From Prochlorococcus marinus XMU1406 (GTDB lineage Bacteria; Cyanobacteriota; Cyanobacteriia; PCC-6307; Cyanobiaceae), in assembly GCF_017696055.1 (NCBI RefSeq), contig NZ_JAAORG010000003.1:124001-188000 (forward strand): 64,000 nucleotides of DNA, read 5' to 3'. Each line of letters begins with the position of its first letter. The first letter of the stretch is position 1. The notes beneath the pieces were generated by a model. The model was not told the origin of the DNA. It ran no database searches and was given only the letters and a program-made list of their open reading frames with translations. The position numbers were made by a program, and so were the translations under genes. Below are positions 52,580 through 57,520 of the stretch, one piece after another.

Positions 52580-53053
52580 ATGTTAAGTAAATTAATCAAT
52601 TCTTTCCTAGATAAAAAAACTCCAATGACAGTCCATGCTCACTGTGATGGACCTTGTGGTGTTTATGATCCAGCATCTACGAGAGTTGCTGCTGAAGCAG
52701 TTTTATCAATGACAAAAAAACTTATTGCACTAGAAGCCCCCTCTAGCACTGATTCAGCAGAGTGGGCTACTTACAGTAATACATTTTCTAGATATGTTGC
52801 AGTTAAAGAAGATCAAGCAAAAGAAACGAAGAAAGAAATTCTAATTTTGTGGACAGATTACTTTAAACCAGTTCACTTAGAAACTTATCCAGACTTACAT
52901 GAAACCATTTGGAAGGCGGCCAAATTATGCAGTGCATGCAAAGTTAATATTGATTTAGCACAAGCAGAAGAACTCATAAGTTATGTAGAAAAGATTCATA
53001 ATATTTTCTGGGCTTCAAAAGGAAGATCAGACGCTTTTGTAAAAGCTAGTTAA
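52580..53053 (+). CDS. sodN: Nickel superoxide dismutase
   Basis: NiSOD removes superoxide using nickel bound by the new N-terminus after propeptide cleavage. The 157 residues start with a 20-residue propeptide; the mature enzyme begins HCDGPCGVYDP at His21, where His, Cys22 and Cys26 bind nickel. The helical core AKLCSACKVNIDLAQAEE is typical. It is followed by the protease gene sodX, which removes the propeptide, and by a convergent nickel permease gene. Marine picocyanobacteria often rely on this enzyme in place of iron SOD. Confidence 0.97.
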   Translation: MLSKLINSFLDKKTPMTVHAHCDGPCGVYDPASTRVAAEAVLSMTKKLIALEAPSSTDSAEWATYSNTFSRYVAVKEDQAKETKKEILILWTDYFKPVHLETYPDLHETIWKAAKLCSACKVNIDLAQAEELISYVEKIHNIFWASKGRSDAFVKAS

Positions 53054-53118
53054 TCAGAATTATTTTCAAAAGTTTTTTTGATTTTATTTTATTCTTTTTA
53101 GGTTTAAGACAAACCGCA

Positions 53119-53415
53119 ATTATTAGTGGTGAATCAATGTTACCTTACCTAAAAGAAGGGGACATTGTATTTTTTAAAAAATATAAAAAGAATAAATCAA
53201 TACTAAAAAATCGCCAAATAGTTATTTTTTATCATCCACTTAAAAATAAAAATCTAATAAAAAGGATAAATTCAGTGAATCAAAATAATATTGAGGTTTT
53301 TGGCGACAATATTGAATTTAGCGAAGATAGTAATAAATTTGGATTAATCAATAAAGAAAAAATAATTGGGATTGTTACCTCTAAATTAATTATTCCTAAA
53401 TTAAAAATTTTTTAA
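53119..53415 (+). CDS. sodX: Nickel SOD maturation protease SodX (start codon unclear)
   Basis: A signal-peptidase-like (S26) protein that should cleave the SodN propeptide. ISGESMLPYLKEGD carries the catalytic Ser (in ESM), LIKRIN the Lys, and FGDNIEFSEDSNKFG the usual GDN-DS box. The first ATG (53137) is the Met just after the catalytic Ser, so it cannot be the true start. The frame is open back to 53050, but that stretch has no ATG, GTG or TTG. I place the start at an ATT (53119); an ATT at 53059 would add a hydrophobic segment. The 3-prime end overlaps the permease gene by 4 nt. Confidence 0.8.
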   Translation: MISGESMLPYLKEGDIVFFKKYKKNKSILKNRQIVIFYHPLKNKNLIKRINSVNQNNIEVFGDNIEFSEDSNKFGLINKEKIIGIVTSKLIIPKLKIF

Positions 53416-56488: not shown

Positions 56489-57346
56489 TTAATTAGAAGT
56501 GTATGCGACTCTTTTTCGTTCTAGTAATAACGGAACTGCAACACAAGCCACATTCAATGATTCTACAAGCTCACTATGCGGAATTGTAATTGTTTCATTA
56601 AAAGCTTCTTGAATTTTTTTATGAATACCTTGTCCTTCATTACCCAAAATTAATGCGGTACGTCTAGACCAATCAACTTCCCAATAAGGTTTTGGAGATT
56701 TTTTTGAACTTTTATTATGGCTACTAGTAGATAAAATCTTAAATCCTTCATTTGATAATTCAGACAAAGACTTAAGTAAAGAATTTAATATTTCTTCTTC
56801 AGTTCCATCAAATCTTAAAAATGGCAGATGAAAAACTGCACCAGAGGATGCCCTTAATACCTTTTGGCCTAATGGATGCGCACCTCCAGCTAAAAAAATT
56901 GAATCAACCTCTGCAGCTAAAGCAGTTCTAAAAAGATTACCCATATTCCCAGGATCTTGAATCTTGTCGAGAACAAGAACAAAATCATCTTTTTTATTAA
57001 ATTGATAATTAGGTATTGCTGAAATCTCTACCAAAGCTGCTATACCATCTGGATTAATTGTTGAAATCGCAGATGCCAAGACTTCCTCTGAGACAATATT
57101 TATTAATGAGTGATGAAATTTTTTGCTTAGATTTTGATTTTTTCTTAGCCATTTTTCGGTAACTAAAATCTTAGAGGGATTTTTTCCAGACTTCAGTAAT
57201 TCTTCAATAAGATGTGTACCCTCTATGCAAAAAAAGTCTTGATCTTTTGGAGATGATCTTCTTTTAAATGATCTAAATCTTTTAACTAGATTATTGTTTT
57301 TACTAGTTATTTTTAAAAAAGTATTTTCTATGAGTAATTTGAAAAT
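56489..57346 (-). CDS. SpoU/TrmH-family RNA 2'-O-methyltransferase (start codon unclear)
   Basis: The SPOUT domain is intact: DKIQDPGNMGNLFRTALA (motif 1), LILGNEGQGI (motif 2) and PHSELVESLNVACVAVPLL (motif 3). The first canonical start, TTG at 57079, gives only 196 residues. However the frame stays open upstream to 57349 and codes a normal TrmH substrate-binding domain: NNNLVKRFRSFKR, FFCIEGTHLIEELL, INIVSEEVLASAIS. That stretch has no ATG, GTG or TTG; only ATT (57346) or ATA (57331) could start it. One fewer T in the T6 tract near 57320 would instead join a TTG in the neighbouring frame. Target RNA unknown. Confidence 0.85.
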   Translation of the reverse strand: MFKLLIENTFLKITSKNNNLVKRFRSFKRRSSPKDQDFFCIEGTHLIEELLKSGKNPSKILVTEKWLRKNQNLSKKFHHSLINIVSEEVLASAISTINPDGIAALVEISAIPNYQFNKKDDFVLVLDKIQDPGNMGNLFRTALAAEVDSIFLAGGAHPLGQKVLRASSGAVFHLPFLRFDGTEEEILNSLLKSLSELSNEGFKILSTSSHNKSSKKSPKPYWEVDWSRRTALILGNEGQGIHKKIQEAFNETITIPHSELVESLNVACVAVPLLLERKRVAYTSN

Positions 57347-57520
57347 TTGTTATCAACTATATTTTAATTACATAAATATTTTGATCAATTATTTATTAAA
57401 TTTTTATTTCCCAAGAAATCAAAAAAATACATTTTCACTTTTAATTAATATTCATGACGTTACATAGGGTGGACTTAATATTATTAGTTTGTCATGATGA
57501 ACCTAATAAATTAAGTCTTA

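Follow-up and report, generated by a model that had tools for sequence, protein, structure and literature searches.

A non-canonical AUU start codon next to the sodN stop is likely for sodX, the nickel superoxide dismutase maturation protease gene of Prochlorococcus

The sodX gene of Prochlorococcus marinus XMU1406, encoding the putative maturation protease of the nickel superoxide dismutase (NiSOD), is likely to be an intact and conserved gene that is translated from a non-canonical AUH codon (AUU, AUA or AUC). In the window, i.e. the whole 64,000-nucleotide stretch of DNA analysed here, this codon would be the AUU at 53062-53064 or that at 53059-53061, situated 5-8 nt past the stop codon of sodN, where re-initiation would provide low amounts of SodX tied to those of SodN.

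Reading frames of sodN and sodX

The forward-strand gene sodN (52580-53053) encodes a NiSOD precursor of 157 amino acids, as supported by matches to TIGR02753 (E 2.3e-72, 241.9 bits against a cut-off of 90) and PF09055 (E 8.6e-49), and terminates with the TAA at 53051-53053. The predicted protein carries the sequence HCDGPCG after a propeptide of 20 residues; we take this motif to be the nickel hook of SodN and the propeptide boundary to follow residue 20. The adjoining sodX lies on the same strand, in a frame that is open from 53050 to the TAA at 53413-53415, with a TAG at 53047-53049 just 5' of it. The whole open frame scores 75.2 bits against TIGR02754 (E 4.2e-21), above the curated cut-off of 63.25. 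Combined with coding constraint and structural modelling, this match led us to propose a gene at 53062-53415 on the forward strand with a product of 117 amino acids from the AUU at 53062, or of 118 if the AUU at 53059 is used.

The original prediction placed the catalytic Ser of SodX upstream of the first in-frame ATG, in a frame open from 53050 and free of ATG, GTG and TTG before the Ser. Both points were confirmed: the Ser codon is the TCA at 53134-53136 and the first canonical codon of the frame is the ATG at 53137, one codon past it. The expected consequence for standard gene callers was also borne out, with a start-codon ORF finder returning a 92-residue frame (53137-53415, forward strand) that lacks the Ser. 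SodX begun at this ATG would therefore be a protein without its catalytic Ser, and ordinary annotation would cut the active-site residue off SodX in Prochlorococcus. The absence of a canonical start in one genome is by itself weak evidence, because the chance of 26 codons without ATG, GTG or TTG is 0.67 under the codon usage of this gene, and it is the related genomes that carry weight.

Catalytic residues, fold and protein-level selection

The catalytic Ser (SGESM, 53134-53136, forward strand; Ser25 of the model) aligns with the Ser in the GESM motif of the signal peptidase SpsB (PDB 4wvh), a residue replaced by Ala in chain 4wvg, and the proposed catalytic Lys (LIKRI, 53260-53262, forward strand; Lys67) aligns with the Lys of the signal-peptidase motifs YVKRV/YVKRI. 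Both residues are invariant in a family alignment of 31 sequences picked for diversity from 201 distinct junction rows. An AF2 model of SodX started at the AUU gave a mean pLDDT of 87.5 and placed a helix at residues 2-12 and a strand at 17-20, followed by Ser25. In a Foldseek search, the best matches of this model were signal peptidases, with SpsB at the top (4wvh, E 1.6e-4, TMq 0.67), and the codons upstream of the first ATG are modelled as the first helix and strand of the signal-peptidase fold. By alignment and predicted structure, SodX thus has both the Ser-Lys pair of the S26 family and the signal-peptidase fold, and it is putatively the protease that cuts the propeptide off SodN. The predicted tryptic peptides spanning the catalytic Ser of the full-length protein include QTAIISGESMLPYLK and TAIISGESMLPYLK.

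Substitution patterns indicate selection at the protein level on the codons that precede the first ATG. The pooled dN/dS of the 24 codons before the ATG was 0.29 over 130 rows, compared to 0.25 after it; the corresponding values were 0.114 and 0.174 for 90 close rows, and 0.44 and 0.33 for 14 diverse rows, while the other two frames upstream of the ATG gave values above 1 in all three row sets. The two codons preceding the proposed start gave 0.9 and 0.68, values drawn from little sequence, and no constraint is apparent on the codons that separate the ATT from the sodN stop.

Survey of the sodN-sodX junction in the genus

A sodX match was found in 217 of 266 genomes of the genus. The 230 loci fetched, many of them from the same species in two collections, gave 226 readable sodN-sodX junctions; the exceptions were L014, L053 and L140, with no sodN in the stretch, and L133, with no readable motif. 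These junctions reduced to 201 distinct ones, 141 counted with the genus and 60 from other genera of the family; 54 of the 141 come only from the named collection and were placed in the genus by sequence. Leaving out L178, whose frame is broken, gave 140 distinct genus junctions.

None of these 140 has an ATG, GTG or TTG in the start zone, codons -28 to -19 relative to the Met of ATG 53137, and 128 have none anywhere between the sodN stop and the Met. The remaining 12 carry later canonical codons scattered over codons -18 to -2 (two of them in L136), none of which precedes the conserved helix. In all 141 genus rows the distance from the sodN stop to the Met is 77-86 nt, and a count independent of any Ile motif puts the first in-frame ATH between -1 and +11 nt relative to this stop in 140 of 140. 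The comparison of related strains suggested with the original prediction, in which loss of conservation before the Ser was to count against it, thus found the upstream residues conserved. Its either-or proposal, a rare start codon aided by the sodN stop or else a disrupted gene, survives in its first half, in line with the coding constraint, the genus-wide conservation and the tight stop-adjacent placement, but its second half is excluded by the many genomes: a local defect or pseudogene at sodX was ruled out by relatives with the same arrangement in 140 distinct genus junctions.

A few loci stood out in the survey. The sodX of L178 has lost 5 bases of the first helix compared to L003, and with them the ATT frame, and that of L133 has an in-frame TAA; either could reflect damage or an assembly error. 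In L129 and L130 the sodN groups with close relatives of the window but the identity of the sodX is only 56%, which would fit a separate exchange of sodX.

Position of the start codon

SodX likely starts at an AUU. The most likely start codon is the ATT at 53062-53064 (forward strand), 8 nt past the sodN stop, which is ATH in 126 of 130 motif-selected distinct rows (ATT in 120, ATC in 6). The alternative is the ATT at 53059-53061 (forward strand), 5 nt past the stop, where ATH is found in 70 of the 130 rows, GTT in 59 and AAT in one. The four rows without ATH at 53062 carry ATT at 53059 (ATT-ACC or ATT-AAC), and 59 rows read GTT-ATT, so that ATT or ATC stands at one of the two places in 130 of 130 rows, partly by construction, since the row-selecting motif required Ile. 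For the same reason, and given the abundance of Ile codons in this region, the occurrence of an ATH close to the sodN stop carries little weight by itself. Eleven genus rows fall outside this count, ten being unfit for the motif (L131, L134-L139, L178, L199 and L200) and one, L128, being offset. A third codon, the ATC at 53053-53055 (forward strand) overlapping the sodN stop (TAATC), is a less likely start; ATH is found at this -1 nt position in 82 of 140 rows, and the other rows have ACC, AGC or AAA among others.

The run of ATT codons is bounded on both sides. Directly after the -1 codon, between the sodN stop and the ATT run, a one-base insertion is found in L016, L071, L084, L093 and L102, and an in-frame stop stands immediately before the run in some rows, e.g. 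L115, L129, L132, L179, L190 and L198; the start of sodX therefore lies 3' of these insertions and stops. On the other side, the conserved helix begins immediately after the run. As ATH is not universal at any one column, the exact start codon may differ between lineages, and GTT could conceivably serve as start in some rows, given the GTC and probable GTT starts of sigR described below.

Coupling to the sodN stop and alternative explanations

It is proposed that a ribosome finishing sodN would re-initiate with fMet-tRNA on the nearby AUU. The output of SodX would then be small and tied to that of SodN, as would suit a protease needed in catalytic amounts relative to an abundant substrate, and the start codon may in this way set SodX dosage and control SOD maturation. 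The position of the junction makes coupling of the sodX start to sodN termination probable: in 140 of 140 rows, the two genes lie on one strand at a spacing compatible with translational coupling (about -4 to +25 nt). In E. coli, coupling is most efficient between -4 and +3 nt and in most cases weakens as the spacing grows, though some studies saw no loss up to +25 nt, and species differ in their spacing rules (PMC12548453). The window spacing of +5 to +8 nt is outside the E. coli optimum. Excess IF3 lowers both re-initiation without a Shine-Dalgarno (SD) sequence and initiation at non-canonical codons (PMC2268962).

An SD-like 4-mer before sodX was absent in 129 of 131 rows, which is uninformative because sodN is also without one (0 of 130 rows). 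No unusual RNA structure was found at the sodN-sodX junction (z -1.07), which neither favours nor excludes coupling by unfolding. A special initiator tRNA was considered and rejected, as ARAGORN, which read 39 tRNA-family places of the genome (two gave none), found nothing odd among 37 tRNA genes, three with the anticodon CAT and one for Ile (GAT).

Rather unlikely is an uncoupled non-AUG start of sodX, with independent initiation at an AUH codon or GUU. Two further AUH candidates described below, a methyltransferase (ATA) and a permease (ATC/ATT), do not lie at the stop of an upstream gene, and sodN likewise lacks an SD-like site, both of which would fit such independence; but the first ATH stays close to the sodN stop (-1 to +11 nt) across all three frame relations of the two genes, and L157, from another genus, has a sodN stop displaced downstream, with a sodX-frame GTG overlapping the new TGA.

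We give very little credence to a SodN-SodX fusion, produced by programmed frameshifting or by readthrough of the sodN stop, as the form in which SodX is made, since re-initiation near a stop tolerates a varying frame relation and a fusion needs a fixed one. In the genus, all three relative frames occur (103, 21 and 17 of 141 rows), with 17 changes on the sodN tree, of which at least 6 (phase 2 versus the rest) are forced by the well-supported branches alone. This tree was built from 75 chosen rows, two more being too short, and 39 of its 72 inner branches are weak; sodX exchange between lineages, as suggested by L129 and L130, could also mimic some frame changes. Although the two genes share one frame across the sodN stop in some rows, e.g. 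L115, L117, L129 and L132, and the relation is less mixed outside the genus (33 of 60 rows in phase 1, 25 in phase 2 and two in phase 0), sodX does not have the fixed frame relation of a programmed frameshift or readthrough gene. Moreover, the TAG just before 53050 leaves almost no room for a shift in the window, and the codons from the sodN stop to the ATT, with no apparent constraint, also speak against a fusion.

It is still harder to credit that the ATG at 53137 is the true start, with SodX a non-catalytic fragment in Prochlorococcus or a decaying gene. This ATG is the first canonical codon and the loci L178 and L133 look damaged, but purifying selection is about as strong before it as after, the Ser and Lys are invariant in the 31 sequences, and the family score is over the curated cut-off. 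Removal of the start codon by a sequencing or assembly error is refuted by the relatives: both collections show this arrangement, 140 distinct junctions in all, and strain MIT 9302 (L076) is among them. Re-initiation at an AUU beside the sodN stop is thus the reading that we prefer.

sodX starts outside the genus

Outside the family, 13 cyanobacterial genomes have a sodN match, of which 12 were taken (G564, a weak partial match, was left out) and 8 had a readable sodX. A canonical codon is available 27-31 codons before the Met in 8 of 8 of these genes, as counted by hand, suggesting that loss of the canonical start is probably a derived state in picocyanobacteria, where it was probably accompanied by closer packing of sodN and sodX.

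The absence of canonical starts was initially considered for the whole family and had to be cut back, as the 60 distinct rows of other genera gave a mixed picture. In the 25 phase-2 rows, the codon overlapping the sodN TGA is CTG in 22 (CTGA), GTG in one and CTA in two. The CTGA rows fall in L141-L169, presumably of Synechococcus type, and their CTG is no more than a candidate start, because rows of other phases (L154, L164 and L166) likewise have the Ser codon TCC ahead of TGA. In L211, L215, L218-L226, L229 and L230, a GTG or ATG in the sodX frame stands inside sodN, 26 nt before the end of its stop (13 of 13), and L221 keeps this position and the same phase despite a 27-nt longer stretch downstream. 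An ordinary ATG follows the sodN stop in L142, L146 and L208, and the starts of L203, L205, L206 and L209 were not assigned to any of these groups. In L157, the usual sodN stop is lost and the gene ends 7 codons later, where the GTG of sodX overlaps the new TGA (GTGA), a suggestive case that looks as if the sodX start had moved along with the stop.

Other AUH-start candidates in the genome

A first control screen of 50 gene pairs, comparing the window with G001, flagged 15 pairs, and a codon-substitution test was added because many of these were too alike to tell leader from coding DNA. With it, 3 of 325 genes (384 kb, compared with up to three relatives) gave a clear protein-level signature before the first canonical codon, at a threshold set after seeing the results (dN/dS below 0.5 with at least 8 synonymous changes). 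All three, namely sodX, a SpoU/TrmH-type RNA methyltransferase and a Mem_trans permease, fall in the first region of 217 genes, and none in the second of 108.

The methyltransferase (56489-57349, reverse strand; PF00588) has a conserved N-terminus upstream of its first ATG, GTG or TTG and an ATA at 57331-57329. Among 25 genus genomes searched, 23 gave full rows (L303 is a partial locus and G174 a weak match), and ATA GAA stands at the same place in 23 of 23, the row of the window included; two of these have a canonical codon nearby, a TTG five codons later in L286 and an upstream ATG in L302. Outside the genus, an ATG, GTG or TTG is found at or next to M-L-T-S in 5 of 5 rows listed. The permease (L312:11253-12194, forward strand; PF03547) lies about 48 kb before the window on its contig. 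Its first 52 codons are conserved (dN/dS 0.29) and lack a canonical start in four genomes, the likely start being ATC in three and ATT in one. Judged by conservation, both genes seem to start at AUH codons as well. Neither start adjoins the stop of a preceding gene, so coupling may not always be required for AUH initiation in this genome.

A wider reading, which we consider doubtful, is that initiation at AUH codons forms a conserved and regular minor pathway in Prochlorococcus, serving about 1 gene in 100, and that the weak start of sodX has been selected to hold SodX low and tied to SodN. If true, NiSOD activation would respond to initiation-factor levels. The three AUH candidates suggest that gene starts in Prochlorococcus need re-examination, and they offer a natural test of start-codon discrimination.

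Comparison with known systems

The core genes of Prochlorococcus include sodN, sodX and sodT (PMC10119275), and some picocyanobacteria have no SOD other than NiSOD (PMC8346466); how its activating protease is made therefore matters for a dominant ocean phototroph. In a survey (PMC8346466), ten sodN-bearing cyanobacteria are counted as lacking sodX, four of which are picocyanobacteria without another SOD, and such absences may in part be artefacts of truncated gene models. No report of a non-canonical sodX start or of AUH starts in Prochlorococcus was found in the open-licence literature, searched mostly as titles and the beginnings of abstracts, and the available parts of PMC2669436 and PMC9361551 hold nothing on either; AUU and AUC starts are mentioned for prokaryotes in general in PMC13339759.

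Within its own family, the sodX of the window resembles the S26-type SodX of TIGR02754 in sequence, in the Ser-Lys pair and in its position beside sodN. It differs from the sodX of the eight readable cyanobacteria outside the family, where canonical codons are available. Similar to known coupled pairs with NTGA or TAATG junctions (PMC12548453), sodN and sodX have a stop and a start a few bases apart on one strand; unlike those NTG pairs, sodX would start at AUH, and its +5/+8 nt spacing in the window is slightly beyond the usual optimum.

The start of infC, encoding IF3, is ATT in E. coli and ATC in Streptomyces (PMC5472188). Like sodX, infC is a conserved gene with an AUH start missed by ordinary start rules, but it is controlled by its own product IF3, while sodX encodes a maturation protease at the stop codon of its substrate. 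An AUU start of infC was not found in Prochlorococcus, the gene beginning at ATG in 3 of 3 genomes, including that of the window, so the AUU of E. coli infC is without counterpart there. In the oxidative-stress system of Streptomyces, sigR has a GTC start that is repressed by IF3, and this start is GTC in 32 of 34 cases over the genus and GTT in two (PMC5472188). The sigR gene is similar to sodX in having a genus-conserved non-canonical start in an oxidative-stress system in which one partner of a pair is kept low. However, sigR comes first in its pair and has an extensive ribosome-binding site, while sodX comes second and is without an SD-like site in 129 of 131 rows.
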